Shown: positions 14,290 through 56,161 of the stretch, in pieces
Layout: each line of letters opens with the position of its first letter
How positions within the stretch are numbered: position 1 is the stretch's first letter
IMG/VR virus record: IMGVR_UViG_3300020476_000002
Coordinates: 1-59,966 of that record
Strand: one strand, 5' to 3'
Source of the DNA: a virus
DNA length: 59,966 nt
The notes under the pieces: model-generated
The model's input: only the letters and a program-made list of their open reading frames with translations
Told to the model about the DNA's origin: nothing
The model's database searches: none
Position numbers and translations under genes: made by a program

Positions 14290-15054
14290 ATGGCAATCCC
14301 CACTTCTGGGTATCCCACCACTCTTGACGACACGAATGCGACACCTGGCGCAACGGTTGAGTTTCCTCAACCAAGTTCGTCAACGGATTTGGATGCAACG
14401 AACGTCGAGCATGATTTGTTGCACACGAATCTTTCTTTGGCAATCGTGGCGTTACAGACGAAACTGGGGATCACTGACTCTAACGCTTCGGCGGATAAAC
14501 TTCTCGTAGGAAGTGGTGCTTCGACTACTGCGTGGACTTCTACGCTTCCCAGTGTCGGTTTCGGCACAGACGGCTCAGGTGTAGACGTAACATTTTATTC
14601 GGCTACCGCAGGCGACTCGATGCTGTGGGACGCTTCGGACGAGAAGCTGGTTATCACTGGTAGCGACGGCCAGAACGCTTTAGAAGTTCCAGATGGCAAT
14701 GTTTCGGTTACCGACCAACTCACAGTCTCCGGTGGGCTGGTTGCACCACTCCAAATTAATGCTCAGACCGGTACGACATATACGTTGGTTATTGGGGATG
14801 CCGGGAAACTGGTTACTTCTTCTAACGGGTCGGCGCAAACTATTACGGTGCCGCCGAACTCGTCGGTAGCGTTTGCTGTTGGCACTCAGATCATTGTTCA
14901 AAACATCGGCTCGGCTAATGCAACGCTGGCTCAGGGGTCTGGTGTCACTATTCAATCTAAGGATTCTAATAAGGAGATTGACGGTCAGTACGCTGCGGCG
15001 ACGCTGATTAAAACGGCAACTGATACTTGGTCGCTTATTGGTGCTCTGAAGTAA
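14290..15054 (+). CDS. Fibre-like protein (phage X, 254 aa)
   Basis: The N-terminal region (residues about 30-58) has the TDLDATNVEHDLLHTNLSLAI...LQTKLGITDS pattern common at the base of phage fibres, where a short trimeric helix precedes beta repeats. The rest is rich in Ser/Thr/Gly beta segments ending SKDSNKEIDGQYAAATLIKT. From codon ~120 the gene lies in the block shared identically with phage Y. The N-terminal third differs between the copies, so the host-contact end was exchanged or homogenised while the virion-attachment end was not. Receptor binding is inferred. Confidence 0.65.
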   Translation: MAIPTSGYPTTLDDTNATPGATVEFPQPSSSTDLDATNVEHDLLHTNLSLAIVALQTKLGITDSNASADKLLVGSGASTTAWTSTLPSVGFGTDGSGVDVTFYSATAGDSMLWDASDEKLVITGSDGQNALEVPDGNVSVTDQLTVSGGLVAPLQINAQTGTTYTLVIGDAGKLVTSSNGSAQTITVPPNSSVAFAVGTQIIVQNIGSANATLAQGSGVTIQSKDSNKEIDGQYAAATLIKTATDTWSLIGALK

Positions 15055-15929
15055 TGCCTGTACGTCCAGTCGATCACGGCATTGTTTCTGCTTCTGGTGC
15101 TGGTGGTGCTGAAATAACGGGAGGTAACAGTTACGACAGCCAAGGTGACGGCTACATATATGAGGAGTTTACTTCGTCGGGAACTGCGACTGTTACTGGT
15201 GATTTGACTGTTGACCTGATTGTTGTTGGCGGCGGTGGCGGTCTTAGCAACAGCGCTCAGTATAATAGAAACTCGTTCAGCGGTGCCGGTGGCGGTGGCG
15301 GTGTTCTTTTAGCCACAGGTTTAGCTGTAACAGCAGGAGATTACACCGTAACTATTGGAGCGCTTGGTTCCAACGGTGCAAGCGCAAGCCAGTATGGGAC
15401 TAATGGGGGTACATCAGTCGTTGAAATTGGTGGCGTTCGGTGGACCGCTTCTGGCGGTGGTTTCGGCGGTTGGGGCGGCGACTATTACGCCGGTAACGGA
15501 AATGCTGGTTCAGCCGCCGACACCTCAAACCCGAACAGTCTGTCGGGAGTCCAAAGCTCTGGCGGCGCTAGCGGTGGCTCTGGTCTATGGTCTGGGTACA
15601 CAGGTGCAACTGCAGGTTCAGGTGCTAGTTCTTACAATACTGGGGGTAATGGGGGAGCAACGGTAACTTTGCATTCTGGCGGTAATGGTGCTGGTACTGA
15701 CTGGTACGGATCACCCGGTGGTGGTGGCTCTGGTACCGGTAATGCCGGTTCTAAACCGGGTGGTGGCGCAGGAGAAACGTGGAATAACTTTGAGTCAGCT
15801 TCTGACGTTTACGGATCAGGTGGAACTGCCACTGGAACAGACAGCGCAGGTACCGGTTACGGTAAAGGCAGTTCTTGGTCGAATGGTAACGGACAAGCAG
15901 GTGTTGTAATTTTTAGGTGGGCTGCATAA
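15054..15929 (+). CDS. Glycine-rich fibre/adhesin protein (291 aa)
   Basis: ATG at 15054 overlaps the fibre stop (TAATG) and is preferred to an in-frame codon 27 bases upstream. After an N-terminal beta segment (YIYEEFTSSGTATVTGDLTV) comes the VDLIVVGGGGG motif that opens glycine-rich phage adhesin domains. A long Gly/Ser/Asn-rich body with repeated GGxGG turns follows, ending GKGSSWSNGNGQAGVVIFRW. Such domains pack as polyglycine helices and bind host receptors in known phage adhesins. It lies wholly in the identical block, so both phages carry the same protein. Receptor binding is the likely role. Confidence 0.75.
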   Translation: MPVRPVDHGIVSASGAGGAEITGGNSYDSQGDGYIYEEFTSSGTATVTGDLTVDLIVVGGGGGLSNSAQYNRNSFSGAGGGGGVLLATGLAVTAGDYTVTIGALGSNGASASQYGTNGGTSVVEIGGVRWTASGGGFGGWGGDYYAGNGNAGSAADTSNPNSLSGVQSSGGASGGSGLWSGYTGATAGSGASSYNTGGNGGATVTLHSGGNGAGTDWYGSPGGGGSGTGNAGSKPGGGAGETWNNFESASDVYGSGGTATGTDSAGTGYGKGSSWSNGNGQAGVVIFRWAA

Positions 15930-16258
15930 TGCGGTTATTCGCTGAAGTTAATTCAGAAAATATTGTTGTTAATGTTGCTCTGTTTGAAGATGATAAAACA
16001 CCTGTCGATTTAGGGTGGACAGGGTGGTATGAAACAGCAGAAAATATCCGTAAAACTGTAGCTGGTCCCGGCTCGACGTTTGTTCCAGAAGCAGACGGTT
16101 ATCCTCTTGGATTGTTTTACCAGCCATGTCCGCACGAAACTTGGGTATTAGACGCTAATTATGATTGGCAACCTCCAACACCCAAACCAGAAGGAAACTA
16201 TATATGGGACGACGAAACTAATAATTGGGTTGAGGTATTTCCTCACGAGGAAGAATGA
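15929..16258 (+). CDS. Fibre-associated protein with C-terminal WxPPxPxPE motif (109 aa)
   Basis: ATG overlaps the previous stop (TAATG), and the end overlaps the endolysin start (ATGA). The product begins MRLFAEVNSENIVVNVALFE and ends with an aromatic, Pro-rich segment (WVLDANYDWQPPTPKPEGNY, then IWDDE), a layout often seen in short phage proteins beside tail fibres, sometimes called fibre assembly or attachment proteins. It is identical in both copies. A chaperone or fibre-tip accessory role is inferred from position. Confidence 0.6.
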   Translation: MRLFAEVNSENIVVNVALFEDDKTPVDLGWTGWYETAENIRKTVAGPGSTFVPEADGYPLGLFYQPCPHETWVLDANYDWQPPTPKPEGNYIWDDETNNWVEVFPHEEE

Positions 16259-17067
16259 ACATCGTTGATGCCCCCGGCAAAATTACTGCCGGACGGCCAC
16301 TCAAACCCTTCGGCATAGTTGTCCACCATACCGCCTCCAACCGCAACGCCGACCCCGACAACGTGATCGCAATGTGTGTACGAGGCGTCAACAAGGTACC
16401 CGGACCTTTATACAACTACCTCATAAAACGTGATGGCACCATTGTCAAGTTGACGGCTGAGAATGTGAAAGCTAACCACGCTGGCCGTGGTTTACAGTCA
16501 GTGTTGACACGAATGCAGCAGAATAAGCCTGTTACGGGTAACGCTTCGAGCGCCGGTAAGATCAGCGCCAACTCTCGTTTAATAGGTGTTTCAATTATTA
16601 ATGACGGGTTAGGGGAAGATGTACCCGAGGCACAGATGGACGCACTTGTAGATTTGTGCGCCTTTCTGTGTGACGGACACAACTGGAACCCCGACTGTGC
16701 TGTGATAGGCCATAAAGAATGGACTTCACGCAAAGTTGACCCCTCGTTTTCTATGCCAGAACTACGTTTAATGGTTCATCGACGCATGATTACATCAGTC
16801 CCAACAATGACTTTACCTAAAGAACCAGAAGACGGACTTGTTCCATTCCCCGGAACACTCCGCAAAGGCTCACGCAGCCAAGCAGTTGTTCATGTTCAAC
16901 GAGTAGTAGGAGCTTTAGCCGACGGAATATTCGGGCGTGGTACACTCGCCAAAGTAAAACAATGGCAGCGAGCTAAAGGGCTTGTTGCAGATGGCGTGGT
17001 TGGTCCAAAAACTTGGGCTGCTATGCAGATACGGAGACAAGAAGTTGTTCAACCAGCGTTTTATTAA
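16255..17067 (+). CDS. Endolysin: N-acetylmuramoyl-L-alanine amidase with peptidoglycan-binding domain (270 aa)
   Basis: Residues about 15-170 form an Amidase_2 domain: IVVHHTAS (His24/25), NHAGRG (His75), IGHKEW (His153) and SRKVDP (Lys160, Asp162) supply the expected zinc ligands and catalytic lysine. Residues about 197-258 form a PG_binding_1 domain (LRKGSRSQAVVHVQRVVG ... ADGVVGPKTW). The enzyme would cut the amide between MurNAc and L-Ala at the end of infection. There is no signal peptide, so it needs the holin encoded just downstream. The codon style becomes AT-rich after the shared block, unlike the GC-richer homologue at 55349-56161. Confidence 0.9.
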   Translation: MNIVDAPGKITAGRPLKPFGIVVHHTASNRNADPDNVIAMCVRGVNKVPGPLYNYLIKRDGTIVKLTAENVKANHAGRGLQSVLTRMQQNKPVTGNASSAGKISANSRLIGVSIINDGLGEDVPEAQMDALVDLCAFLCDGHNWNPDCAVIGHKEWTSRKVDPSFSMPELRLMVHRRMITSVPTMTLPKEPEDGLVPFPGTLRKGSRSQAVVHVQRVVGALADGIFGRGTLAKVKQWQRAKGLVADGVVGPKTWAAMQIRRQEVVQPAFY

Positions 17068-17248
17068 AGATTCATTAGAGCGTGGAATCTCTACCTTTGC
17101 TCAGGCATGGGCTGCAGCTATGGCTGTACCCGGACCTGACTGGGGTGATTCCTTGAAGATCGCCGGAGTTGCGGCGCTTATCGCTATTGCCAAGGCTGTT
17201 GCTGCCAGAAAAGTGGGTGACCCTGAAACGGCATCAGTCACTAGTTAA
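17045..17248 (+). CDS. Putative r1t-type holin (67 aa)
   Basis: The likely start is TTG at 17045, inside the endolysin end, matching the TTG start and 67-aa length of the copy at 56139-56342; a longer upstream reading is not conserved. The sequence FIKDSLERGISTFAQAWAAA, then PDWGDSLKIAGVAALIAIAKAV, follows the r1t holin pattern: a basic amphipathic start, a first hydrophobic segment, a short DW turn, and a second Ala-rich transmembrane segment. Holins open the membrane to release the endolysin. The adjacent amidase supports this. Confidence 0.75.
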   Translation: MFNQRFIKDSLERGISTFAQAWAAAMAVPGPDWGDSLKIAGVAALIAIAKAVAARKVGDPETASVTS

Positions 17249-17264
17249 GAAATGAGGTTGTTCT

Positions 17265-18131
17265 GTGACGCAATATCGTCAGTCGGGGGTTACATATAGG
17301 GAATCGGGTGTCGCTTATGCGTCGCCTACAACTATTACCCCGGCGACGATTGCGGCCACAGCAACCATCCCTACTAATTTCCAGTTTGAGTATCGTCAAT
17401 CTGGGCAGGCTTACAGAAACAGTTACGACTATCGTCAAGCGCTTATATCTGGCAACGTTTATTTAGTTGAAGTTACACCGGCGGCTGTCGCTGTTACTAC
17501 ATCTATTACAGCTACTGGTGGTATACCGATCACGGTTAGTCCGGCAACTATTGCTGCTGTTGCGGCTGTACCCGGCCCCACTTTAACAGTCAACTATGTT
17601 GACATCGATCTAGTAGATGTTCGGGCTTTCGCTGCAGTTCCTTCTCCCACAATCACAACCGGTATCATCCAATACCCAGCAACCATTACGGCTACTGCTG
17701 GAGTTGACCCCATTATTGGTGTCAACATTATTGAGCCAGAGACCATTGCTTGTACCAGCCAAGTACACACTCCGACTCTTATGTCGAATCCTGTTCCGGC
17801 AACAATAACTGTTGACGGCACATGCAACGATGCTCACCAAATGTACAGGTTCTATCCGGGGGCAGAAGCTCTTGTTCCACCTGTCGGGTTACGCAACAAA
17901 CCAACTCCGGCAGCGTACGCATTAGCTCGACATTATTCTCCACGGGACAGGGCACGAAACTTATTTATTATTAATAACACATCAGTACAGGATTATCTTC
18001 CCGTAGATACCACAACCGTTACACGCTGGCTTCTTGGCGGTCACTTCCCACCATCAGACTTGACTCCAAGTGAGATAGCATTACTAGACGCCAGTGGTTT
18101 CCCCATTGACGTAGGAGCAGGAGTTACTTAA
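17265..18131 (+). CDS. Tail/structural protein with YRQSG and PATIA repeats (288 aa)
   Basis: GTG start after AGGTTG. The N-terminus carries short Tyr-rich repeats (YRQSGVTYRESGVAY, then EYRQSGQAYRNSYDYRQ). The middle has repeated beta units of the type TPATIAATATIP. The C-terminal domain (PPVGLRNKPTPAAYALARHY ... TRWLLGGHFPPSDLTPSEIA) is shared with the phage Y-position homologue at 56354-57220. The YRQ-type repeat also appears near the end of the 643-aa tail protein downstream, hinting that the two interact or share origin. Virion role inferred; no enzyme motif. Confidence 0.55.
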   Translation: MTQYRQSGVTYRESGVAYASPTTITPATIAATATIPTNFQFEYRQSGQAYRNSYDYRQALISGNVYLVEVTPAAVAVTTSITATGGIPITVSPATIAAVAAVPGPTLTVNYVDIDLVDVRAFAAVPSPTITTGIIQYPATITATAGVDPIIGVNIIEPETIACTSQVHTPTLMSNPVPATITVDGTCNDAHQMYRFYPGAEALVPPVGLRNKPTPAAYALARHYSPRDRARNLFIINNTSVQDYLPVDTTTVTRWLLGGHFPPSDLTPSEIALLDASGFPIDVGAGVT

Positions 18132-26341: not shown

Positions 26342-26575
26342 TCATTGGTCCATCAAATCCTTTATCATGCTGTCAAGATCACCTTCAACATGTGTCAACA
26401 ACTCATGCACTTCGTGAAGACGACCCTTTAAGATTGTTAGGGGAACGTGAAGATACAGTTCACCCTCGACTTGCTCCTCCGTATACTCTTTCTCTAACTC
26501 ATCACGCCGAGCTTGAAGGTACGCCATAATATTTTCAGCAGTAATCAAATCGTGATTACCAATTGTCTTATTCAC
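26342..26575 (-). CDS. Hypothetical protein (77 aa)
   Basis: Mostly helical and acidic: AENIMAYLQARRDELEKEYT, then a segment ending LTHVEGDLDSMIKDLMDQ. The start overlaps the DUF932 gene stop by four bases, so the two are translationally coupled. No family recognised. The heptad-like spacing suggests a short coiled coil. Confidence 0.7.
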   Translation of the reverse strand: MNKTIGNHDLITAENIMAYLQARRDELEKEYTEEQVEGELYLHVPLTILKGRLHEVHELLTHVEGDLDSMIKDLMDQ

Positions 26576-27582
26576 GACTGCTCTCCTACCAAAATCTTGG
26601 CAGCCTTCTCAGTCATCGGTAACTTCCCGAACATCACATTGGCATCATGCCTACGGGCACGTTCCATGCTGCTATTCACACCCTTAACTGATTTATCTTT
26701 CTGCTCCCATGCTTGAACAGCCATGAGTGCACCCCACTTGGTGTTACGCACACTAGCTATATCCTCGTCACGACGGAATCTGTGATTCAAGTCTGATTTC
26801 ACGTTACGCCAACGAGTTAACTGATTGTAATAGCCCTGATGTGATTGAGTATTGCTTCTCCACCACGGCTCTTCAGGTCCACTACCAATGAGATTGATAA
26901 CTAATCCATCCCATTGTTCATCAACGAACTCTTCGTTAGCCATACGTTCAATCTGTTGCTTGTATGTTTCATGTCTTTCATAGCTATCACACAATGCTTG
27001 AACAGCTTCTTGCATCATGCCTTGGGGATCACCCATCTTCTTAAACTTGAAGATAGCGTTCTTATCCAAGATGTTTAGCTTGAAAGTATTCGCACACACA
27101 ACAGCCCGTGCAGACTGAGTAGCAATTAACGGAATACTTTTGTCATGTCCGTTACCAATGTTGAACATCGATTCAACTCTTGACCAACCGGGAATTTCTA
27201 TATCTTCCTTGAACTTCAGAGACACATAACCAACAGCACCATGATCATAGGTACCAACTGATTCGATAGCCTCTACCAGTCCAGTATCGATAAGCAATCC
27301 AGTTAATTCATCAGCCATAAACCGATGTTGAACTATTCGGTATCGATTACTTACTTCAGCATGAGCATATGGATAGTTGACCATCTTTAAGACCTGTCGA
27401 TCCGAAAGTAATTCAGCTACTCCATGATGCTCAATGAGTATCGGTGTACGTTCAACCTCAGACCAGTCAAAGGCTTCACGAGCTTTCTCCCAATCAATAG
27501 GTCCAACGGTACCCATTCCATGCCAAGCAGCCTTACGATATAAGGCATGTTCAGCATCTAATTTTGTCATCCTATGTGACAT
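26572..27582 (-). CDS. DUF932 / phage-plasmid-like protein (336 aa)
   Basis: The N-terminal region AAWHGMGTVGPIDWEKAREA, then the central ANRYRIVQHR-like segment (VSNRYRIVQHRFMADELTGL), and MFNIGNGHDKSIPLIATQSA followed by RAVVCANTFKL, are hallmarks of DUF932, a family spread among phages and plasmids. Length fits. The molecular role is unestablished; its usual place beside SSB and recombination genes suggests a DNA metabolism function. The start overlaps the upstream gene by 11 bases. Confidence 0.85.
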   Translation of the reverse strand: MSHRMTKLDAEHALYRKAAWHGMGTVGPIDWEKAREAFDWSEVERTPILIEHHGVAELLSDRQVLKMVNYPYAHAEVSNRYRIVQHRFMADELTGLLIDTGLVEAIESVGTYDHGAVGYVSLKFKEDIEIPGWSRVESMFNIGNGHDKSIPLIATQSARAVVCANTFKLNILDKNAIFKFKKMGDPQGMMQEAVQALCDSYERHETYKQQIERMANEEFVDEQWDGLVINLIGSGPEEPWWRSNTQSHQGYYNQLTRWRNVKSDLNHRFRRDEDIASVRNTKWGALMAVQAWEQKDKSVKGVNSSMERARRHDANVMFGKLPMTEKAAKILVGEQS

Positions 27583-37970: not shown

Positions 37971-38368
37971 TGCCACGCAAAGGCCGAGGATCAAAAACTC
38001 AACCTGTTCAAACGGAAACGGGACAAGAATATGGGAGTGCGCTTCAACAAGAAGAAGCGCAGATGGTTCAACCACTCCCGTTAAACGTTGACCCAGCGGC
38101 CCGAGAATTCGGTCCAAGGCGGCCTCGCCCAACTGCCGGTCAAGCAGGTGACCCGTTTCGGAGGACAGATCGTCCCGGTCAACCAATCGCTACACTTCCA
38201 TCATCAGGTGTTGCACCACCGTTGCCACCGGAACGTGCCCGTGCTCTTCCCCCCGTTTTACATATTTTTTATGCGATGGCTAATAGTGCTTACGCAGATC
38301 CAGACATGCAGGACGTGGTTCGTCGAATGGAAGGCTTCGTTCCTACAAAATATGATCAAACGCTATGA
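37970..38368 (+). CDS. Hypothetical virion-module protein (132 aa)
   Basis: ATG overlaps the portal stop. The start MPRKGRGSKTQ equals that of the 37-aa phage X ORF, and the rest (GQEYGSALQQEEAQ ... SAYADPDMQDVVRRMEGFVP) equals the 112-aa phage X protein, so one gene here corresponds to two there. Pro/Arg-rich middle, no CxxC. It overlaps the giant gene by four bases. Assembly role inferred from position. Confidence 0.75.
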   Translation: MPRKGRGSKTQPVQTETGQEYGSALQQEEAQMVQPLPLNVDPAAREFGPRRPRPTAGQAGDPFRRTDRPGQPIATLPSSGVAPPLPPERARALPPVLHIFYAMANSAYADPDMQDVVRRMEGFVPTKYDQTL

Positions 38369-41300
38369 GTATCGGCAGTCGCTTCTATGAGATTGCGCGA
38401 ACCCCGTTTGTTTTTACATCGAAAGCCGTCGATTTTTTTGCTGATGGTTTAACCCATATACCCGAAACATACAGACAGAGTGAGGGTTCTTCGTTAGAAC
38501 GAATGACGTATGCGCCGATTCGTTCATGGTTCGAATCGTTCAAAGACAATGTTGCTGGGCAAGCGTCAGTAACGAACGACATGACACCGGGCGACAGTAT
38601 GTTCGGTATGGTCATGGGACCCAAAGGTCTTATCGGAGCGACCGTTGAAGCCATCCCTGAATGGGTTGGCCCGATTCCGGTACGAAAAGTTGGTGGGGTT
38701 ATTTGGACTCCGTTTCTTGAAAATATGCAACGGGTGTACAAATACGGGATTGATCGTCCGCTTGGGTTTTTAGCAACTATAGGTAATGTGTGGGGACTTG
38801 AAACTCAGGGCGAAACAGAAGACAGCGGATTCAATTTGCCTTTCACTGGAGGAGTGGTAGGACAAATTCCGGGTGTTAGAAACGTGTTTCAGGGAAAACC
38901 AGAGGACGCACCGCAACGTCTAGCAAATATGATTCCGGGTAACTGGCAACAAGACGACTATGACGCCGTGACACTCAACTTGGACACATACAAAGATGTG
39001 TGGGATGTCACCGAATCTCGAAGCGCTGGGCAAGCAATAATTTTGTCGCAACAAAACATAGACATTTTTGATCCGGTATCGGTACAAGATTTCGAAGGCA
39101 CTCTTTACTATCAGATGGCTTCAGGTACTATTGACTTGTATCTCAACTTGGCAGGCGACCCCGGTTATCTTGCAGTTAAAGGTGTGAAGCTGGGTTACGG
39201 ACTTAGACAAGCCCGATTACAGTATGCTCAAACTGGTGAATTTCGGTTGCCGCCGAACACGGTACGGGCACCGTTTTCGTTGTCGGATGTTCGTGGGAAA
39301 CGACGTAACGCTCGTGACCGTGACGAAGCTGCATACCAAAACTTGGGTTGGACTCCTAAATGGTTGAAGAGTCCTGCCAGTAATGCGTCTGTTCAAGAAG
39401 TAGCGACACAGCGTCCTTACTTGGAAGTTAAACAAGCTGTTCAAGATCTTGTGTATCGAACACGTGAGGAGCTTGGTTACGGTGTTCGTGGCGTTGATGA
39501 GGCACAACCTCAATATGTCGCTAATGAAATAGGCGTATTCTATGATAGACGTTCAGGACACGTAGGAAAGTCGAGAGAAGCTAGACGTGCCGAATTGGAA
39601 GGGAGCCGCAAAAATGAGGTAAGAGATACTGCGGAACGCTTAGAAGAAAACACAGATTACAATCTTCACCTAGACCGTCAGCTTTATGAAATTGGAGAAG
39701 GCTCCCGACCAAAATCTAAACTTCCAAAAAAGATGACGAAAGCTCAACTCATTGATTGGATACTTGACAGAGAATTCAGAGTTGAAAAAGGCCCCAGAAT
39801 TCTGTCCGATGTAGAGGACCTTGACCCTGTTTATTTGACAAGCGGCGAAGGAGCAGTAACCGAATTAGCTGCTCTACCTGACGACCCAATTATGATGACC
39901 GGACAAATCGATCAGCTTATGGTTCGTATCGGTGAAGAACTTGATGCGTTGCAAAAAGAATTCGGTAGTTTTGATAGAGATCAAGTTATAGCAAATATTT
40001 TAGAGGACACTCCTTACAACACTCTTGACGATATTGCTGACGCATTAGATGACCTTTGGGATCGTCGTCAGTCTGGAGGAGTGGACTCCGAAATTGATTC
40101 GGGGCAAATGCCTTTAGAGGAATTATATGAGGCGCTTGAACTAACAAGATTTGGAGACAGCCCAGATTTCCCAAACACTTTTTTCTTGGACGACGAAGCG
40201 ATACGGGGATTAGGTCTTGATCCTGCAGACGGTCCTGTACCGGTTACTGCGTCGATGAACACTCCAAGTGAATTATTTGACACTCAGGGGTCCCCCGGAA
40301 TAATTTTTGCCGACGAGGCTGACAGAATACCGGCATTACTTGATTATCTAGGTATGGATGGCGCTGCCGCAATAAGCAACTTTGATCGGATTACAGGAAA
40401 TGTTGGAGGAGGACAGAAATTAGTAAACTGGGTGGAACGTGTTTTAGATCTGGAAGACGCTAGATATGCAGACCCGGAGGGTCAAGAATTTCGTGCTGCA
40501 CAACAAAGAGTAGATGCAGCCCGCGGAGAACTTGAAGAACTAGTCGAACCAATATCTCGACGCATCGACGACTGGGATCAGTTCGACGATTTCGCTGATA
40601 TGACTAGTGCGGCTGAAGCCAATTATGTTGACATCAATCAATACCCACTTTTCTGGTTAGACAATCTTTTGAACCAGATCGAACGTCCTCTAAGTACCCG
40701 AGAAGGTTGGGCACGTCCACGGTTCGATCAGTATTTTGCTTTCTGGGGCGTGGGTTTAGATTCGCCAACGATACAACGAATCTTAAAAGAAAAAAGAATT
40801 ATTGAGCTTGAACGTCTCCAAGGAACTGTCACCCAAAAACTCGCAGCTTTCGACCAAGCCACTGTCCGTGTCATGGAACTCAAACAAGATCCGCTTCTAC
40901 TTGGTGGAACAGCAGACAACCCTGTTTTCGTACCACCAACAAAAACCCCAACAGAAAAATTTATTGACGTACTCGCATTAAAGATAATGAATGCAGGAAA
41001 AGCAGGAAAACTGGGACAGAAATGGCGCAGGATGCCTCACGATCAGGCATACCAGCGTGCAAAAATATGGGCGACGTTAGCGAATACTGGTCCTGTTGAT
41101 TCAACGTCGTGGCTGCCGTTCGACAATTTTTTGAAATTAGAAGTTGGTGCGCCTGCAGCTAGACAAGCAATGGAAAGCCAAGCACATTTTTTGGCGGCGA
41201 TGTTTGGCGGTGGAGACTTCCAAGGTTTCAAGTTTTATCTTCGCCGCTATGCGACAGTGAACGAATCGATTAAACAGATACAACGTGCTCTTGCTTTTTA

Positions 41301-44300
41301 TGGTGACCCGGAGTTGCGTGCACATGCAGTTCCTTCACCTGAAGACATACAAAATCCACGTTATGTTGATGGCCCTATTGAGGTGACAGAGGCAGGCGAG
41401 TGGAGTACCGCATATACGACACCGGAACAACAGTTAACAGAACTGGCTACTGTCCCCTTCGAAAATATTGAAAGCTACAAACAACTCGGTGAATACAAGA
41501 TCCGTGTATTACAACAAGAACTCGCCTTTCTGAATCGAAAGTTTCAGGCAGAAATTTCGTCCATGTCAACGAAAATGCGTGCCTATTTCGATGAATTCGA
41601 TCCAGAGTTAGATACCGAGTGGCATTTCAGAGACGACATTGAAGCCAACCAAGGATCACAACCTTCAATCGGGTTTGAAGACATAGAAGATTTTGTTGTT
41701 CCTCAAATGGGAACTCCCGAGTTTGACAACTTCATTTCCCAACTCAACCAACTTGACCAAATGCCGTGGAACGCAATTCTCAACGTCAAAGAAGATTTAC
41801 TGAAAACACTTATCGAAGAGCAACCTCAACTGTTCTCTGGACCAGACAAAATTCCGGGGACTGTTCCGAAGTATCAGGAAGTAGTGAAAGGTTCAGAAAG
41901 TCTTATCCAAGTAACAACCGACCAGATTTTGGATATGACTGGTATTCCGCTGTCACCAACTGGGATGCTTCCTTATCTTGGTGCCCCTAACCGTCTTGGG
42001 TTTAGCGCACGTACTTTTGTAGAAAGATCTGAACGTTACAACAACTTTGCACGTTCACGTGCTGTGCGTGTCATTGTTGACAAAGTTGCCCAAGGACTTG
42101 TTGACTGGCGTAATCCTTCTCACGCTTACATTCAGGTTGAGCGAATGATGCGAGATTTTGAACGTCTTGCAGATAAGGATGGTGTTCCTTTAACTGAGAA
42201 GTTGAGAGAATATTATCGGATAGGTTGGCAAGAAACTGATGTTGAGGCAATAGCTAGAGGAGCACCGGAAGGTGTACCGAATGCTTACGATGGTTTTGTA
42301 ATAGACGAAGTTTTGGCTGAACTGTTAAACAAAACTGATGACCCGATAGCGATGCGTCACCTTTTCGAAGACGTGTCTCAACGAATGCTTGACATAGTTG
42401 TTGATGCTTACGCAGATATTCGTGATCCGATAACAGGTAAACGAATTATTGATAACCACAAAGTTGTCCAAATTTTGCGTGGCGATATGTCTGCGGCAGA
42501 CGATCTATTGAAAACGTCGGCTGAACGTCAAGACCGAATGTTCGGAAACGGTGATGTTACAACAGTCGAATGGATTAACGACGGCGAAAACATTAGACGC
42601 CATATCCCGATTATGCCATCCCAAGTCCAACACACATCAATCGTTCCACGATTCGACATGTTCCAACGCCTCGTCAACATTGTTGGTGATGACTACAAAA
42701 CAATTCTTGATGCCGATGGAAATCCGCAACGTATCCATCTTGGGAAATCTCGTGCACAGGTTCGGGTTGCTCGCCGGTTTATGTCAACAGCGTGGAAGCG
42801 TGGGGTGCTGCTAACTCCTCGTTGGCAGATGGTTGTCAATATTGATTCGATGTTGCGGACAATGGCTCATGTTGGGACTGCGGCAACGGTTGGCCGTTTG
42901 GGTAATCGTATGGATACGTTGCAGGCACGTTGGTTGCGTAAGAGTGGAGTTGATGTTACTCGTCTTGTAGCTGACGAAGTTGCTGCCCGAATTGACGCAG
43001 ATGGGATTTTAACCCCAGAGCGAGTTTTAGGTGAAATAGAACGTAGGTATCCAGAATTAGAATATTTAGAAGGTGGTTCAATTACTGATTTGGCTAATGA
43101 TCCATTAATCCGTGACATGATTACTAAGCCTGAAGACGCGATTAATAGTATGCGTTTACAAATAGAATATGATGCGGGTAATCCGAAATATTTTGTAAGA
43201 AATCTGAAAAGAGAATTATCTGAGGAACAACTTGACGAATGGGGCGCAAATGTTATCGAAGAATTAGAAAAGCGAGAAAGAGGGGAAACTCCTCAGCCTG
43301 TTGAAGTTGATCGTACTGTTTCAGTAATGAATTTGATTGACGAGGTTTTAGATGAATTCCTAATGGGGTATAGTCGGGAATTCGGGACACGGGGAAGATC
43401 GTCTTATAAAGAACCTGAGGCAATACATATGGATGCCAAAGGTGGTGTCAAACTACCTGAAGGTACTCAGCCAGATGTGATGAGTTTGGAATTAGATGAT
43501 GCTTTCCGCAGAATGGAAATGGGGGGAATGAATTATGACAAATGGATCAGCGCTGATTCCCGTATGGGTCGTTCTCGGGGTTCTCAATTCGTAGAAAACG
43601 TTCAACAATATAACCGTTTAAGAGAATTTGCACCTGACCATCCGGCGCTAAAAGAAACTTTTGATGAACTCGTTGAAGGTGTCATCGACAGTGAATACGC
43701 TCGTGGTCGAAGGATGCGTCGAATTGGGTTAACAACCGGTGTCGGACTTTTCTTTGGCGGTCCAGTCGGAGCCGCAGTCGCCGGACTCGCATACAGCAAA
43801 TATTCACGTAACAGTTTGCAGGCGTTAGCCCGACGCACAATCGCAAACGATTATGCACAAGCTCTCAGACTTGAAGCCTACGACAGTTTGAATCGTTTAG
43901 AAAAACTGGACGAAGCTGTGCTTCGTGGCTATATGCCCGAAGATTTTCGGATTCGTGACTTCGAAGCGCTTACCCCTGACGAACTAATGATGTTAGACAT
44001 GGGGTATGAAGTCGCTGAAGTTCTCGGACAAGCCGCAAAAGACAGACGTGAAGCTGCACGACTCATCTCTACTCGTGCCGATTTCATAGATGATTATCAA
44101 CGAAACGTTGTTGACGCTTTCCGAGCAGACCAACCAGAACTCGCTGGACGTTTCGACGAAGCTGCAGAAATACTTGGCGACGCAGGATACGGTCAAACAC
44201 AATTCGGAAACGTTTCTATCGACAATGCGTGGGGCGACATACCACAATTACAAGAAGTTTGGGAACGTGTTAATAGCGCTAACGCTACAGCCCGTTCAGT

Positions 44301-47112
44301 TTGGGCTGAAGAAACAGCAGCGATTCGACGTTCAGAACGTAGCCACGCAACACAACAATACGACGTGGAAGTTATTTACGAACAGGAAGCGTTTGTTGCT
44401 TCTTGGAATGAATACATAGCTCACCACGCACAACCCCAAGGTCCAGCTTCAGGTATCCCTCATCGTGATTTTATGCGTCCTTTTTGGGAAGGAAAAAGCG
44501 ACGGCGAAATTTTTGGTTGGTTGCAGCGTGAAGGAGCAGATGTTCTTGAACGGTTACCAGAACAGTGGCAGACACCTGAAGGTATGCGGCAACTTATAGA
44601 GAGTGTGCGTTATGAAACAGACACTCTTGTACCTAACTTGCCTGAGTTTGTTGAGGTTCGAGCGAAGCTAGCTAGGGGTGAGTCTGTTCGCTGGGATGCT
44701 GATATGGCTCCTGTTTTGGAACGATTGAAACGGGATCAAGATGAATATTTAGATATTAGTCCCGGTGGTTTAGATCCAAAAGCCTTAGAAGCTGACTTAG
44801 CTGAAACAATAAAGTTACGGGACGAACATAACCAGCTATGGGAAGACGTTGAAGCTGGTAGGCGAGAAATGCCTGACTTCGAAGATGGCTCTTGGACGAA
44901 CGTAGCAGCAAATCTTGATCAAGCTATTGACAATATTCAACGGAATTTAGAAGAAATTGCAGCAGGCGGAACAAGAATGACAGACCGTCTGAGTTTAGAA
45001 GAGTTTGCTGAAGGAGTCCCTCCAATGGGGGCACGGTACAGCGAACAAGGCGGACTTTTTGCTACTCGATACCAACTTGAAAAAGAATTCCCGAATGCTA
45101 CTGGTATCGAAATAAATAGACGCATACGACAAATGTCAATGATTGAACGTTTACGCATAGCAGGAAAAGCCCAACTGTCACGCGAAGTTCTTGAAGCTAA
45201 CGGACCCGGTATTGGAAACAGTTATTGGAACTCGCTAGTTGACTTTGGTAAAAGTATCGGTACCTCCGACTACATGGACGCCATACAAGAAATATCAATG
45301 CGGAAACGTGCAGTCCAACTCATCGACAACTTCGTTACCGACAGATTCGAAAACCTGACAATGGTAGAAGATGTGATATCACGTGGCACCATGTTCGAAG
45401 CAGTATACGAACGAACAATGGCCGAATACCTCCAACGACACCGCAACCCAGACGGCACCTACACAATCAACGGCAACCAACTCGCAACAATCACAGAAAA
45501 GTCACGACAACAAGCCCTATTCGAAACAAAAAATGTTCTCTACGACTTAGCGGAACGTTCACGTTTCGAAGAACTCATGGTCGAATTGATGCCATTCCTC
45601 GGCGCATGGCAAGAAGTTGCCTCTCGTTGGGTGGGCCTCGCCGCAGCCAACCCCGTGTTCGTTGCACGTGCCCTTCGTCCTTGGTATCTACTCACCTCAG
45701 AAGACGAGCATGGTCAAACCAAATTGGTGTTCAAACTTCCTCCAGTGTTTGACACAAGTGTCGCCGGATTCAAACTCTTCGGTCCCATCTCGATGCTCAC
45801 CAAAGAAAACGTTGACCTGAAACTTTCGTCTGCTTCGATGATTGGTGCGCTACCCGGTACTGGTCCACTGTTCTCGTTCCTAACAACTGAACTTGTTATA
45901 CAGGTTCCAGAAATGTCTGAGTTTGTTGACTGGGCATTACCATACGGTTACGCCGAAGGCGGCAACGCTGTCTCTAGGTTCCTTAACGTTCACGCACCTT
46001 CATGGGTGCGAAGCGGACTGCAGCAAGCCGGGATGGATACGAATAGTCGGGCAGCGACAGCAGCCCGAGTCACTCTTGACTATCTTTCCGAACTACACGA
46101 GAACGGTGTCATGGTTGGTGATAGTGCTGCTGAACGACGTGCACTTGACGAAGAAGTTGAACGTCGAGTCAAAATGATATATGGCATGAGAATGTTCCGG
46201 TCTTTAGCAGTCCCAGTTTCATTCAGGCAACAGTCACCTTATTGGGCAATCATCTCAGAGTTCCACAAAATGGAAGATGAGCATGGTGCCGAGATCGCAG
46301 ACTACTGGTTGTTAGAAAACCATCCCGATCTTTGGGCATACACCGGACGCAAATATGCTACCAATGGTGTTGTCGCAGGAACTCTTGAAGGTCACCAAAA
46401 ATATTTGGCGCATCAAGAATTCGCTGATCGTTACCCAGAAGTAGGTGGATTTGTTACTGGTGCAGTTGGGGCGATAGATGTCCAGTTTGAATACAATCGT
46501 GCTGTTCGTGATGAAGAAATTCGGTCAGGGCGTAAAGAGTATTTAGATCCGGGGGGAATTCTTACCGAATCATCGGAGTCTATTGGTTGGCGTGAGTATC
46601 GGGTATTCAGAAACTCTCTTGATGCTGAACTTCGTTTGCGTGCAGATTCTGGTGGGTCAGCAAGTCTAAACGCTAATTCTAATTTTGATTTAAAAACAAA
46701 GAAAGATCAGTTTGTCGCTGAGTTAAGTAGACTCAATCCGATTTGGGCATCCGAATTCAATGACATCGGAAACTTCCAAACACAAGGCAGAATCCTTCAA
46801 GCGTTCAGAGAAATAGTGGCTAGCGAAGATTTTGCTTATCGACCTGAAATTCCTGTTATCGAAATGTTCCTTACCTTGCATGACGGTATCGGCCAAGAGA
46901 TGGTTACTCGTGCCAACATTGAATCCAACTCCAATTACCTTCTTCTTTCATACAAAAAGAATGATGATCTGAGACAACGCTGGGAAATTGGGGTGTTGAG
47001 TATTCTTCGGTACCCAGACTTTGGTCCGATCTATGATAGGTATTTTAGTAAGATGGAAAGTATATCTACCCAAAATCTCCCACGCCGACTTGAATTAGTG
47101 GAAGCGACTTAG
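38365..47112 (+). CDS. Giant virion protein, candidate internal/ejection protein (phage Y, 2915 aa)
   Basis: At 8.7 kb it takes up over a fifth of the phage Y genome. It is homologous to the 1837-aa phage X protein at the N-terminus, around a hydrophobic Gly/Ala hairpin at about 1780-1820 (GLTTGVGLFFGGPVGAAVAG) and near residue 2411 (PFLGAWQEVASRWVGLAAAN) to the end. Most of the ~1,080 extra residues lie before the hairpin and are charged and helical, with a KKMTKAQLIDWILDREF helix. Internal virion role is inferred. No protease, transglycosylase or ADP-ribosyltransferase motif was recognised. Confidence 0.6.
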   Translation: MSIGSRFYEIARTPFVFTSKAVDFFADGLTHIPETYRQSEGSSLERMTYAPIRSWFESFKDNVAGQASVTNDMTPGDSMFGMVMGPKGLIGATVEAIPEWVGPIPVRKVGGVIWTPFLENMQRVYKYGIDRPLGFLATIGNVWGLETQGETEDSGFNLPFTGGVVGQIPGVRNVFQGKPEDAPQRLANMIPGNWQQDDYDAVTLNLDTYKDVWDVTESRSAGQAIILSQQNIDIFDPVSVQDFEGTLYYQMASGTIDLYLNLAGDPGYLAVKGVKLGYGLRQARLQYAQTGEFRLPPNTVRAPFSLSDVRGKRRNARDRDEAAYQNLGWTPKWLKSPASNASVQEVATQRPYLEVKQAVQDLVYRTREELGYGVRGVDEAQPQYVANEIGVFYDRRSGHVGKSREARRAELEGSRKNEVRDTAERLEENTDYNLHLDRQLYEIGEGSRPKSKLPKKMTKAQLIDWILDREFRVEKGPRILSDVEDLDPVYLTSGEGAVTELAALPDDPIMMTGQIDQLMVRIGEELDALQKEFGSFDRDQVIANILEDTPYNTLDDIADALDDLWDRRQSGGVDSEIDSGQMPLEELYEALELTRFGDSPDFPNTFFLDDEAIRGLGLDPADGPVPVTASMNTPSELFDTQGSPGIIFADEADRIPALLDYLGMDGAAAISNFDRITGNVGGGQKLVNWVERVLDLEDARYADPEGQEFRAAQQRVDAARGELEELVEPISRRIDDWDQFDDFADMTSAAEANYVDINQYPLFWLDNLLNQIERPLSTREGWARPRFDQYFAFWGVGLDSPTIQRILKEKRIIELERLQGTVTQKLAAFDQATVRVMELKQDPLLLGGTADNPVFVPPTKTPTEKFIDVLALKIMNAGKAGKLGQKWRRMPHDQAYQRAKIWATLANTGPVDSTSWLPFDNFLKLEVGAPAARQAMESQAHFLAAMFGGGDFQGFKFYLRRYATVNESIKQIQRALAFYGDPELRAHAVPSPEDIQNPRYVDGPIEVTEAGEWSTAYTTPEQQLTELATVPFENIESYKQLGEYKIRVLQQELAFLNRKFQAEISSMSTKMRAYFDEFDPELDTEWHFRDDIEANQGSQPSIGFEDIEDFVVPQMGTPEFDNFISQLNQLDQMPWNAILNVKEDLLKTLIEEQPQLFSGPDKIPGTVPKYQEVVKGSESLIQVTTDQILDMTGIPLSPTGMLPYLGAPNRLGFSARTFVERSERYNNFARSRAVRVIVDKVAQGLVDWRNPSHAYIQVERMMRDFERLADKDGVPLTEKLREYYRIGWQETDVEAIARGAPEGVPNAYDGFVIDEVLAELLNKTDDPIAMRHLFEDVSQRMLDIVVDAYADIRDPITGKRIIDNHKVVQILRGDMSAADDLLKTSAERQDRMFGNGDVTTVEWINDGENIRRHIPIMPSQVQHTSIVPRFDMFQRLVNIVGDDYKTILDADGNPQRIHLGKSRAQVRVARRFMSTAWKRGVLLTPRWQMVVNIDSMLRTMAHVGTAATVGRLGNRMDTLQARWLRKSGVDVTRLVADEVAARIDADGILTPERVLGEIERRYPELEYLEGGSITDLANDPLIRDMITKPEDAINSMRLQIEYDAGNPKYFVRNLKRELSEEQLDEWGANVIEELEKRERGETPQPVEVDRTVSVMNLIDEVLDEFLMGYSREFGTRGRSSYKEPEAIHMDAKGGVKLPEGTQPDVMSLELDDAFRRMEMGGMNYDKWISADSRMGRSRGSQFVENVQQYNRLREFAPDHPALKETFDELVEGVIDSEYARGRRMRRIGLTTGVGLFFGGPVGAAVAGLAYSKYSRNSLQALARRTIANDYAQALRLEAYDSLNRLEKLDEAVLRGYMPEDFRIRDFEALTPDELMMLDMGYEVAEVLGQAAKDRREAARLISTRADFIDDYQRNVVDAFRADQPELAGRFDEAAEILGDAGYGQTQFGNVSIDNAWGDIPQLQEVWERVNSANATARSVWAEETAAIRRSERSHATQQYDVEVIYEQEAFVASWNEYIAHHAQPQGPASGIPHRDFMRPFWEGKSDGEIFGWLQREGADVLERLPEQWQTPEGMRQLIESVRYETDTLVPNLPEFVEVRAKLARGESVRWDADMAPVLERLKRDQDEYLDISPGGLDPKALEADLAETIKLRDEHNQLWEDVEAGRREMPDFEDGSWTNVAANLDQAIDNIQRNLEEIAAGGTRMTDRLSLEEFAEGVPPMGARYSEQGGLFATRYQLEKEFPNATGIEINRRIRQMSMIERLRIAGKAQLSREVLEANGPGIGNSYWNSLVDFGKSIGTSDYMDAIQEISMRKRAVQLIDNFVTDRFENLTMVEDVISRGTMFEAVYERTMAEYLQRHRNPDGTYTINGNQLATITEKSRQQALFETKNVLYDLAERSRFEELMVELMPFLGAWQEVASRWVGLAAANPVFVARALRPWYLLTSEDEHGQTKLVFKLPPVFDTSVAGFKLFGPISMLTKENVDLKLSSASMIGALPGTGPLFSFLTTELVIQVPEMSEFVDWALPYGYAEGGNAVSRFLNVHAPSWVRSGLQQAGMDTNSRAATAARVTLDYLSELHENGVMVGDSAAERRALDEEVERRVKMIYGMRMFRSLAVPVSFRQQSPYWAIISEFHKMEDEHGAEIADYWLLENHPDLWAYTGRKYATNGVVAGTLEGHQKYLAHQEFADRYPEVGGFVTGAVGAIDVQFEYNRAVRDEEIRSGRKEYLDPGGILTESSESIGWREYRVFRNSLDAELRLRADSGGSASLNANSNFDLKTKKDQFVAELSRLNPIWASEFNDIGNFQTQGRILQAFREIVASEDFAYRPEIPVIEMFLTLHDGIGQEMVTRANIESNSNYLLLSYKKNDDLRQRWEIGVLSILRYPDFGPIYDRYFSKMESISTQNLPRRLELVEAT

Positions 47113-51711: not shown

Positions 51712-51714
51712 ACA

Positions 51715-52704
51715 GTGGCTTATACACCACCACTTTCTTTAACTAACCCGACCGGAACCGGTCAACTAACGAACCAAGTAACTACGGCTTTCGAACAGAT
51801 TGCTTATTTTGCTTTGCGTTCACAGCCTCTTTACGAGATGATTTGTGATGTTCGTTCAACTGCACAGAGCCACAATGCGGCAACTGTTCAGTTCACGTTC
51901 TATCCAAACATGGATCAGGTTACTGGGACGCTTACTGAAGCTACAGACGTTACGCCTGTTGCTCTTAGTGACTCCAAAGTAGATGTTGCGTTGAACGAGT
52001 ATGGTAGCTCGGTCATCACGACTGCTTTGATTCGTGGCACATCATTCTTGAATGTTGATGCTGACGCCGCCAACATCATTGGTTACAACATGGTCGATTC
52101 AATCGACAAAGTTGTTTCTAATGTGCTTATGGCTGGCACTAACGTCTTGTATTCCAAAGGAACACAGGCAACACGCCCAACTTCTCGTGTAACAGTCGGG
52201 GATGATGCAACATTTGATGCTAATGTAGGTCGTGAAGCTGTAGCAGCGCTTCGTGGCGATTCTGCTCCCGGTTGGGAAAACGGAAACTACATGGCGATCA
52301 TTCACCCGGATGTTTCCTACGATCTTCGTGGAGACACAGCGGTAACTGACGTTATCCAATACCAACTGTACCAAGACGGTGCACCGATTCGTGCAGGCTC
52401 GATCGGCACATTCAACGGCATCAACTATATTGAGAACCCTCGTGCTCCCATATTGGATGATGCTGGTGTTGGTGGTGCAACCAACGTTTACCAGACTCTT
52501 ATCTGTGGTCGCCAAGCTGCGGCGAAGGCTTTCAGCCGTGCGCCGGGATTTGGTGAGCAACCAAGCATTGTGTTCGGTCCTGTGACTGACACGCTGCGCC
52601 GGTTCAACCCTGTGGGCTGGTATCACCTTGCTGGATGGTCAATCTTCCGGCAGGAATGTATGCGACGAGTTGAATCGTCGTCATCTATAGGCGACAACAC
52701 CTGA
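51715..52704 (+). CDS. Major capsid protein (phage Y, 329 aa)
   Basis: GTG start at the position matching the phage X ATG. It is conserved with the 312-aa phage X protein, including GTSFLNVDADAANIIGYNMV, GNYMAIIHPDVSYDLRGDTA and VTDTLRRFNPVGWYHLAGW. Differences concentrate in a longer segment near residues 140-165 (SKGTQATRPTSRVTVGDDAT), a likely surface loop. It is the main shell subunit. Confidence 0.85.
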   Translation: MAYTPPLSLTNPTGTGQLTNQVTTAFEQIAYFALRSQPLYEMICDVRSTAQSHNAATVQFTFYPNMDQVTGTLTEATDVTPVALSDSKVDVALNEYGSSVITTALIRGTSFLNVDADAANIIGYNMVDSIDKVVSNVLMAGTNVLYSKGTQATRPTSRVTVGDDATFDANVGREAVAALRGDSAPGWENGNYMAIIHPDVSYDLRGDTAVTDVIQYQLYQDGAPIRAGSIGTFNGINYIENPRAPILDDAGVGGATNVYQTLICGRQAAAKAFSRAPGFGEQPSIVFGPVTDTLRRFNPVGWYHLAGWSIFRQECMRRVESSSSIGDNT

Positions 52705-52727
52705 TAGTTGTTGCTCACTGAGGTGTA

Positions 52728-52762: not shown

Positions 52763-52787
52763 TGCTTCCTCTGCTATCATTTCAACC

Positions 52788-52886: not shown

Positions 52887-52941
52887 TGTAACGATTCGGC
52901 CCAAACCCATAACTGGGACCGGAGGAGCTAAACGTGGCTAG
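52867..52941 (+). CDS. Conserved micropeptide (24 aa)
   Basis: The ORF reads MQKPNGD followed by VTIRPKPITGTGGAKRG, the same 17 residues as in phage X. It begins inside the basic-protein gene and ends eight bases inside the next gene. About 60 bases of DNA here are the same in both phages, and they also contain the next gene's ribosome binding site. Confidence 0.5.
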   Translation: MQKPNGDVTIRPKPITGTGGAKRG

Positions 52942-53377
52942 TGGCCTTTACTGCCTGTCAATGGAACAAAACTTAGAACAGGTAACTAATTTTCAAATTG
53001 ATTTTAATGATACGACTGCTGATCGTTTCAAATGCATGTTGTCTACAGCTTCGTGGACACCGGCTTACAGCACAATGTCAGTTAAGTCTGATGTGACTCA
53101 CGAGGTGTCTGGTGCCGGGTATACCGCTGGTGGGGAGTCGTTGACTTCTGTCACGTTCGCTACGAGTGGGGGAACGATTACTTGGGATGCAGCGGATGTG
53201 GAGTGGGCTTCGAGCACGATTACTGATGCTCGTTACGCCACCATTTATGACGACACGCTCACTAATGATCCTTTGATTTGTACTATTGATTTTGGTGGAG
53301 ATTTTTCTACTGTGTCTGGTACGTTCAAAATTACTTGGAATGCAAGCGGTATCTTTACGCTTGACTTGACCCCGTAG
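52934..53377 (+). CDS. Virion protein of the VSGTGYTAGG family (phage Y, 147 aa)
   Basis: It has the same length and motifs as the phage X copy: KCMLSTASWTPAYSTMSVKS, EVSGAGYTAGGESLTSVTFA, DARYATIYDD and FKITWNASGIFTLDLTP. Divergence from the other copy is concentrated in the first third. Decoration or fibre-base role as for its homologue. Confidence 0.7.
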   Translation: MASGLYCLSMEQNLEQVTNFQIDFNDTTADRFKCMLSTASWTPAYSTMSVKSDVTHEVSGAGYTAGGESLTSVTFATSGGTITWDAADVEWASSTITDARYATIYDDTLTNDPLICTIDFGGDFSTVSGTFKITWNASGIFTLDLTP

Positions 53378-53386
53378 GAGTAAATA

Positions 53387-54148
53387 ATGGCAATCCCAGC
53401 TACCGGGTATCCCACAACTCTTGATGACACGAATGCTACGCCTAGCGCAACGGTTGAGTTTCCTCAACCGAGTTCGTCAACGGATTTGGATGCAACCAAC
53501 GTCGAACACGACATTTTGCATACGAATCTGTCGAAGGCCATTGTCGCTCTCCAGACGAAACTGGGGATCACCGACTCTGATCCCTCTTCTGGAACAATAT
53601 TGCAGGGTACGGGTTCTGGGTCTGAGTGGTCTTCTACACTCCCCAGTGTCGGTTTCGGCACAGACGGCTCAGGTGTAGACGTAACATTTTATTCGGCTAC
53701 CGCAGGCGACACGATGCTGTGGGACGCTTCGGACGAGAAGCTAGTTATCACTGGTAGCGACGGCCAGAACGCTTTAGAAGTTCCAGATGGCAATGTTTCG
53801 GTTACCGACCAACTCACAGTCTCCGGTGGGCTGGTTGCACCACTCCAAATTAATGCTCAGACCGGTACGACATATACGTTGGTTATTGGGGATGCCGGGA
53901 AACTGGTTACTTCTTCTAACGGGTCGGCGCAAACTATTACGGTGCCGCCGAACTCGTCGGTAGCGTTTGCTGTTGGCACTCAGATCATTGTTCAAAACAT
54001 CGGCTCGGCTAATGCAACGCTGGCTCAGGGGTCTGGTGTCACTATTCAATCTAAGGATTCTAATAAGGAGATTGACGGTCAGTACGCTGCGGCGACGCTG
54101 ATTAAAACGGCAACTGATACTTGGTCGCTTATTGGTGCTCTGAAGTAA
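53387..54148 (+). CDS. Fibre-like protein (phage Y, 253 aa)
   Basis: The N-terminal part (TDLDATNVEHDILHTNLSKA, then IVALQTKLGITDS) differs from phage X at many bases. From about 53645 it becomes nearly identical, and from 53744 fully identical. The gene is one codon shorter in the region around GTILQGTGSGSEW. The sharp change from diverged to identical marks a recombination edge. Confidence 0.65.
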   Translation: MAIPATGYPTTLDDTNATPSATVEFPQPSSSTDLDATNVEHDILHTNLSKAIVALQTKLGITDSDPSSGTILQGTGSGSEWSSTLPSVGFGTDGSGVDVTFYSATAGDTMLWDASDEKLVITGSDGQNALEVPDGNVSVTDQLTVSGGLVAPLQINAQTGTTYTLVIGDAGKLVTSSNGSAQTITVPPNSSVAFAVGTQIIVQNIGSANATLAQGSGVTIQSKDSNKEIDGQYAAATLIKTATDTWSLIGALK

Positions 54149-55023
54149 TGCCTGTACGTCCAGTCGATCACGGCATTGTTTCTGCTTCTGGTGCTGGTGG
54201 TGCTGAAATAACGGGAGGTAACAGTTACGACAGCCAAGGTGACGGCTACATATATGAGGAGTTTACTTCGTCGGGAACTGCGACTGTTACTGGTGATTTG
54301 ACTGTTGACCTGATTGTTGTTGGCGGCGGTGGCGGTCTTAGCAACAGCGCTCAGTATAATAGAAACTCGTTCAGCGGTGCCGGTGGCGGTGGCGGTGTTC
54401 TTTTAGCCACAGGTTTAGCTGTAACAGCAGGAGATTACACCGTAACTATTGGAGCGCTTGGTTCCAACGGTGCAAGCGCAAGCCAGTATGGGACTAATGG
54501 GGGTACATCAGTCGTTGAAATTGGTGGCGTTCGGTGGACCGCTTCTGGCGGTGGTTTCGGCGGTTGGGGCGGCGACTATTACGCCGGTAACGGAAATGCT
54601 GGTTCAGCCGCCGACACCTCAAACCCGAACAGTCTGTCGGGAGTCCAAAGCTCTGGCGGCGCTAGCGGTGGCTCTGGTCTATGGTCTGGGTACACAGGTG
54701 CAACTGCAGGTTCAGGTGCTAGTTCTTACAATACTGGGGGTAATGGGGGAGCAACGGTAACTTTGCATTCTGGCGGTAATGGTGCTGGTACTGACTGGTA
54801 CGGATCACCCGGTGGTGGTGGCTCTGGTACCGGTAATGCCGGTTCTAAACCGGGTGGTGGCGCAGGAGAAACGTGGAATAACTTTGAGTCAGCTTCTGAC
54901 GTTTACGGATCAGGTGGAACTGCCACTGGAACAGACAGCGCAGGTACCGGTTACGGTAAAGGCAGTTCTTGGTCGAATGGTAACGGACAAGCAGGTGTTG
55001 TAATTTTTAGGTGGGCTGCATAA
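54148..55023 (+). CDS. Glycine-rich fibre/adhesin protein, second copy (291 aa)
   Basis: The protein is identical to that at 15054-15929, with the same ATG overlapping the fibre stop. It carries the VDLIVVGGGGG opening and a Gly/Ser/Asn body. The presence of one unchanged adhesin in two otherwise diverged modules suggests a shared receptor, or that one locus is represented twice. Confidence 0.75.
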   Translation: MPVRPVDHGIVSASGAGGAEITGGNSYDSQGDGYIYEEFTSSGTATVTGDLTVDLIVVGGGGGLSNSAQYNRNSFSGAGGGGGVLLATGLAVTAGDYTVTIGALGSNGASASQYGTNGGTSVVEIGGVRWTASGGGFGGWGGDYYAGNGNAGSAADTSNPNSLSGVQSSGGASGGSGLWSGYTGATAGSGASSYNTGGNGGATVTLHSGGNGAGTDWYGSPGGGGSGTGNAGSKPGGGAGETWNNFESASDVYGSGGTATGTDSAGTGYGKGSSWSNGNGQAGVVIFRWAA

Positions 55024-55352
55024 TGCGGTTATTCGCTGAAGTTAATTCAGAAAATATTGTTGTTAATGTTGCTCTGTTTGAAGATGATAAAACACCTGTC
55101 GATTTAGGGTGGACAGGGTGGTATGAAACAGCAGAAAATATCCGTAAAACTGTAGCTGGTCCCGGCTCGACGTTTGTTCCAGAAGCAGACGGTTATCCTC
55201 TTGGATTGTTTTACCAGCCATGTCCGCACGAAACTTGGGTATTAGACGCTAATTATGATTGGCAACCTCCAACACCCAAACCAGAAGGAAACTATATATG
55301 GGACGACGAAACTAATAATTGGGTTGAGGTATTTCCTCACGAGGAAGAATGA
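55023..55352 (+). CDS. Fibre-associated protein, second copy (109 aa)
   Basis: Identical to 15929-16258, beginning MRLFAEVNSEN and ending with the DWQPPTPKPEGNYIWDDE region. It overlaps the endolysin ATG by four bases. Likely fibre accessory or assembly protein. Confidence 0.6.
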   Translation: MRLFAEVNSENIVVNVALFEDDKTPVDLGWTGWYETAENIRKTVAGPGSTFVPEADGYPLGLFYQPCPHETWVLDANYDWQPPTPKPEGNYIWDDETNNWVEVFPHEEE

Positions 55353-56161
55353 ACATCGTTGATGCCCCCGGCAAAATCACTACCGGACGGCCACTCAAAC
55401 CCTTCGGCATAGTCGTACACCACACCGCCTCCAACCGCAACGCCGACCCCGACAACGTAGTCGCCATGTGTATACGTGGAGTCAACAAAGTCCCTGGTCC
55501 TCTCTACAACTATTTGATTAAACGTGACGGCACGATTATGAAACTCACGGCTGGCAACATCAAAGCCAACCACGCAGGCCGAGGCTTACAGTCCGTCCTG
55601 ACTCGTGTCCAGAAAAACCTTCCCGTGACAGGCAACGCAGCCGCACCAGGAAAGATCAGCGCGAACTCCCGCTTCATTGGGGTGTCAATTATTAACGACG
55701 GTTTGGGTGAAGATGTGCCCGAAACACAGATGGACGCATTGATTGATTTGTGCGCCTTTCTGTGCGACGGACATAAATGGAACCCGGACGCAGCGGTGAT
55801 AGGACACAAGGAATGGACTTCTAGGAAAGTCGATCCCTCGTTCTCGATGCCTGAGCTGCGGGTAATGATCCGTCGCCGCATGGTTACGTCTGTTCCCACA
55901 ATGGTTTTACCGAAAGAACCTGATGACGGCTTGGTGCCGTTTCCTGGGACACTTCGGAAGGGGTCACGTTCGGCTGCTGTAAAGTTTATGCAGGAACGCA
56001 TAGGTGCAACAGCGGATGGTATTTTTGGACGAAACACGAAAGCACAATTAATTAGATGGCAGCGAGCCAACGGGCTTGTTGCCGACGGCATATGCGGCCC
56101 CCAGACGTGGGGTCGTCTTCAACTGAAAAGGAACGACATTGTTCAACCAGCGTTTTATTAA
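55349..56161 (+). CDS. Endolysin, Amidase_2 plus peptidoglycan-binding domain (270 aa)
   Basis: Same domain order and ligand positions as the first copy (His24/25, His75, His153, Lys160, Asp162). Its binding domain (KGSRSAAVKFMQERIGATAD ... GICGPQTWGRLQ) has diverged much more than the catalytic part. After the first codons the gene is outside the identical block and is GC-richer than the other copy, fitting phage X. Confidence 0.9.
   Translation: MNIVDAPGKITTGRPLKPFGIVVHHTASNRNADPDNVVAMCIRGVNKVPGPLYNYLIKRDGTIMKLTAGNIKANHAGRGLQSVLTRVQKNLPVTGNAAAPGKISANSRFIGVSIINDGLGEDVPETQMDALIDLCAFLCDGHKWNPDAAVIGHKEWTSRKVDPSFSMPELRVMIRRRMVTSVPTMVLPKEPDDGLVPFPGTLRKGSRSAAVKFMQERIGATADGIFGRNTKAQLIRWQRANGLVADGICGPQTWGRLQLKRNDIVQPAFY

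Follow-up and report, generated by a model that had tools for sequence, protein, structure and literature searches.

Two related phages within one record

The sequence studied was the whole virus record IMGVR_UViG_3300020476_000002, a single IMG/VR contig of 59,966 bp that we refer to as the window. Its first 14,649 positions (1-14649, plus strand, annotated with PHROGs) form the left arm of a phage that we call A, and encode a portal protein left incomplete by the window edge, a 112-aa protein, a giant 1837-aa protein, proteins of 255, 858 and 429 aa, a scaffold protein, the major capsid protein (12605-13543), a 147-aa protein and the N-terminus of a fibre. A plus-strand block (14650-16283) with a Gly_rich_2 match follows, and an identical copy of it lies on the same strand at 53744-55377. 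The sequence between the copies (16284-53743, no single strand assigned) is the unique part of a second phage, B, and runs from an endolysin gene to a fibre N-terminus. The right arm of A (55378-59966, plus strand) then encodes an endolysin, proteins of 288, 129 and 310 aa, and the 5' part of a ~650-aa gene that the window edge truncates.

The genes of B include endolysin, tail proteins, exonuclease, SSB, a Rad52-like protein, PD-(D/E)XK nucleases, terminase, portal, capsid and fibre, the virion genes having been identified by alignment to the A proteins. Its landmarks are the one terminase (34273-36204), the portal (36207-37970), a giant 2915-aa protein (38365-47112) and the capsid (51715-52704). 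Between A and B, amino acid identity was 78% for the portal, 65% for the capsid, 71% for the tail protein and 82% for the endolysin. The giant protein encoded after the portal gene is 1,837 aa long in A (1800-7313) and 2,915 aa long in B, and a Pfam scan of the A version gave no match. A DUF932 protein is encoded at 26572-27582, in the minus-strand recombination/replication module, near the SSB, Rad52-like and Cas4-like nuclease genes.

An earlier note on this DNA had proposed that a full gene set lies between the block copies and that the outer arms are the matching parts of a second phage. Both proposals were borne out: the genes from endolysin to fibre are present and close circularly, and the arms carry homologous portal, capsid, tail and endolysin genes. 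The inter-copy DNA is one full, circularly closing phage genome, B, 39,094 bp round. Of phage A, which has a higher G+C than B, a 20.9-kb fragment is present (1-16283 and 55378-59966). No tRNA, no recognisable host DNA and, among the genes scanned, no convincing integrase were found in the arms or the inner part, and a search of a bacterial and archaeal genome collection found no capsid relatives. All of this speaks against nested prophages in a host chromosome, an arrangement for which the nesting itself is the one argument and which we consider extremely improbable.

An exact repeat in diverged flanks

The direct repeat is exact over 1,634 bp (14650-16283 = 53744-55377), its copies lying 39,094 bp apart, as the earlier note had described for a block shared by two diverged virion modules, and this exact duplication covers 2.7% of the contig. 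The 102 bases before the block differ only at 14617 and 14649, with a 69-bp exact run at 14548-14616; the whole recently shared cassette, block plus these 102 bases with their two mismatches, thus spans 14548-16283 on the plus strand. To the left of 14547 the A and B copies diverge, and on the right side the nearest mismatches are at 16284 and 16288. Mean blastn identity was 88% across 13783-17653, a value in which the block itself is counted, and 66-73% further out. The flank homology is colinear through the virion genes, with nucleotide identities of 73% in the portal, 66% in the capsid region and 69% in the tail region. A chance origin of the block identity is excluded at any divergence found in the flanks, because, even at 2% divergence, the computed probability of 1,634 bp without a mismatch is ~1e-14.

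Base composition swaps at the block, a claim of the earlier note with which both matched genes and regional values agree. G+C was 51.1% and 53.7% in the arms and 46.6% in the inner part. In matched A/B genes it was higher in A every time, by 1.6 to 8.7 points (capsid gene, 53.8% in A vs 49.4% in B; 129/132-aa gene, 51.5% vs 43.1%). The values counted by hand in that note (49, 45, 41 and 51%) fall within a few points of those that we obtained for the 60-bp samples (48, 43, 40 and 48%). Tetranucleotide patterns gave 0.714 for the A-A pair and 0.718 for the B-B pair, against 0.597 and 0.618 for the mixed pairs, so that A-left pairs with A-right, and B-left with B-right, better than either does in mixed combination.

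The shared block as a fibre-tip cassette

The block holds the C-terminus of the fibre (to 15054), a glycine-rich protein (15054-15929) with the Gly_rich_2 match, a 113-aa protein (15917-16258) and the start (29 bases) of the endolysin gene. Most relatives carry unrelated or largely unrelated DNA between ~14547 and ~16254, set between the same two anchors, and relatives differ in the whole distance separating the 147-aa gene from the endolysin (1.9 to 4.6 kb). Five pairs of contigs share near-identical cassettes or large parts of them, with capsid genes only 70 to 86% identical. In L029/L065 the cassette is 93.9% identical over 1,861 bp and the capsid genes 70%; in L082/L112 the values are 99.5% over 3,880 bp and 84%. 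The further pairs are L033/L078 (93.5%), L045/L147 (92.5%) and L069/L070 (99.6%). These comparisons indicate that fibre-tip cassettes, located after a conserved fibre N-terminus and before the start of the endolysin, are exchanged among diverged members of the uncultured marine family.

In L161, an A-like contig, a related set of fibre, glycine-rich and 105-aa genes is joined to an A-type endolysin, which argues that such a cassette is natural for phage A. The glycine-rich protein of L161 is partly similar to that of the block, for which a pattern search of IMG/VR returned no close relatives. No solved structures resembling the glycine-rich protein by sequence were found, and its structure model was of low confidence (mean pLDDT 38). 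Position and family point to a putative receptor-binding role for the cassette.

Size, copy number and ends of related genomes

IMG/VR was scanned with the portal, capsid, endolysin, terminase and tail protein, yielding at least ~200 related contigs. Among those listed none exceeds 40,660 bp, compared with 59,966 bp for the record. One capsid gene was counted in 51 of 55 related records and none in the other 4. Two related contigs have exact terminal repeats and differing start genes (G009, 37,923 bp, repeat of 117 bp; G011, 36,604 bp, repeat of 99 bp). The relatives form a family of marine tailed phages whose genomes, ~36-40 kb long, are circularly permuted or terminally redundant and have circular maps; these sizes and terminal repeats make 39,094 bp one genome length.

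Two near-complete relatives, G008 (37,870 bp) and G004 (36,459 bp), show imperfect self-overlaps close to the cassette. The overlap at the ends is 196 bp at 99% in G008 (L185 1-196 with the end of L186) and 230 bp at 97.8% in G004 (L193 1-230 with the end of L194), and these ends look as if the assemblies had broken there.

Among named phages, the block DNA had no match and the portal and capsid had distant matches only (portal, 23%). The nearest named relatives of the two capsids (12605-13543 and 51715-52704) are those of Streptomyces phages, at ~38% aa, which may faintly hint at an actinobacterial host.

Junctions in independent contigs

If A and B are separate phages, each should have its own arms joined in other strains. 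In four contigs (L028, L158, L159 and L161) the left arm of A runs straight into its right arm, from 55348 onward, at 87-94% nucleotide identity, and in L114 (G039) B-left (45.2-53.6 kb) is joined to B-right (16.25-24.3 kb) at 90-96%. These junction contigs are relatives, at 87-96% to A or B, and represent other strains. The cassette at the proper junctions differs or, in L161, is merely related, and the exact block occurs in none of these contigs. Across contigs that carry the capsid and the downstream tail genes, likeness on the left predicts likeness on the right: the well-resolved cases were 9 A-like, 2 B-like and 0 mixed. The joins of the record itself (A-left/B-right and B-left/A-right) were sought in related contigs spanning capsid and tail genes and were absent. 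For the endolysin and the 147-aa gene, which adjoin the cassette, lineages separate less cleanly, in keeping with recombination in this neighbourhood. G038 and L028 come from one metagenome, and G038 was examined as a candidate for the rest of A; it proved to be a different relative with its own right-arm genes and was rejected.

We give hardly any credence to a stable phage with two virion modules in one genome. The record as deposited has that form, but every relative with a capsid match has a single capsid gene, B is complete alone with its ends joined in L114, and both G+C and tetranucleotide pattern separate the arms from the inner part. The earlier note had named two virion modules in related phages as an observation that would favour such a phage, and none of the 55 related records has a second capsid. 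Its picture of one phage nested inside another likewise found no support, given relatives of ~36-40 kb with a single capsid and A and B junctions that appear separately in independent contigs.

A probable assembly path through the shared block

The record is very probably an assembly chimera of two co-occurring related phages, A and B, a reading drawn from its topology and its relatives. We modelled a B circle and A arms joined through the block as a de Bruijn graph. At k of 77, 99 and 127, exactly four unitigs were obtained, of ~37.6, 14.7 and 4.7 kb and of exactly 1,634 bp. The record equals the path A-left, block, B, block, A-right through this model, using all four unitigs and the 1,634-bp one twice. 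The identical 1,634 bp in both genomes collapse to one graph edge; A and B would have come to share them after a recent swap of the putative receptor-binding (fibre tip) cassette. The assembler may then have entered the block edge from A, left it into B, circled B, reused the edge and left it into A. With one edge used twice, the block copies are identical by construction.

Removal of graph bubbles may also have wiped out the few remaining differences within the block. The residual cassette differences at 14617 and 14649 follow 69 and 31 identical bases, respectively, after the preceding difference, and would have stayed unsmoothed because a difference so near the preceding one cannot yield a bubble of its own at k of 77 to 127. 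This pattern suggests that smoothing removed differences standing alone within the block. As a counterpoint, the 1,634-bp repeat exceeds the usual short-read insert, and many assemblers would halt there and not walk through.

The same topology is the product of a single crossover, and a real A-B co-integrate could have arisen in a doubly infected host cell through crossing over in the fibre-tip cassette that the two exchanged, the sequenced molecule being a concatemer or a replication intermediate. The recombination module of B, which includes SSB, Rad52-like and nuclease genes, speaks for this reading, and a true co-integrate would represent a cassette swap frozen at the stage of an unresolved single crossover. 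We nevertheless judge it quite unlikely. No related contig listed exceeds 40.7 kb, a second capsid occurs in none of those checked, and the relatives offer no precedent. A joined genome of ~75 kb would be expected to overfill a capsid that loads about one genome length, and a rare intermediate is unlikely to dominate an assembly. The other possibility raised in the earlier note, that the assembly path went round a circular genome by way of a shared repeat, fits the junctions, sizes, copy number and graph alike.

Comparison with known cases and significance

IMG/VR contigs with a repeated genome have been reported as probable artefacts in the CheckV work (PMC8116208). The record resembles them in that an assembler seems to have rounded a circular genome, giving more than one genome length per contig. 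In the CheckV cases one genome occurs several times, and detection relies on k-mer frequency or on a duplication that covers at least 20% of the contig (PMC8116208), whereas here two different phages are joined and 2.7% is exactly duplicated, so the CheckV repeat filter would probably not detect it. According to the Phables paper, repeat regions are among the causes of chimerism in phage contigs (PMC10563150). As in the Phables and vClean chimeras, a module common to co-occurring phages would have led to the wrong join, and duplicated single-copy genes reveal it (PMC10563150, PMC11704788); vClean treats multi-contig bins, whereas this mix sits within one contig (PMC11704788).

Host-recognition genomic islands of marine phages were described by Mizuno 2014, as cited in PMC6487183. 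Like those, the cassette is a variable tail-fibre region with conserved flanking genes, and regions of this type cause short-read assemblies to break. Unlike those islands, this one lies between a fibre N-terminus and an endolysin in an uncultured family, and was recognised by contig comparison rather than read recruitment.

Taken at face value, the deposited record would make the genomes of this family look larger than they are and imply a two-capsid phage. It exemplifies a kind of chimera in which different phages are joined via one short shared cassette; a repeated-k-mer test is likely to miss it, and a check for duplicate single-copy virion genes exposes it immediately. The sharing of the tail-tip block by A and B is probably real and recent. 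What is left is modest: two diverged marine phages in one sample with an identical fibre-tip block, which is evidence that genes with a presumed part in host recognition are exchanged rapidly.
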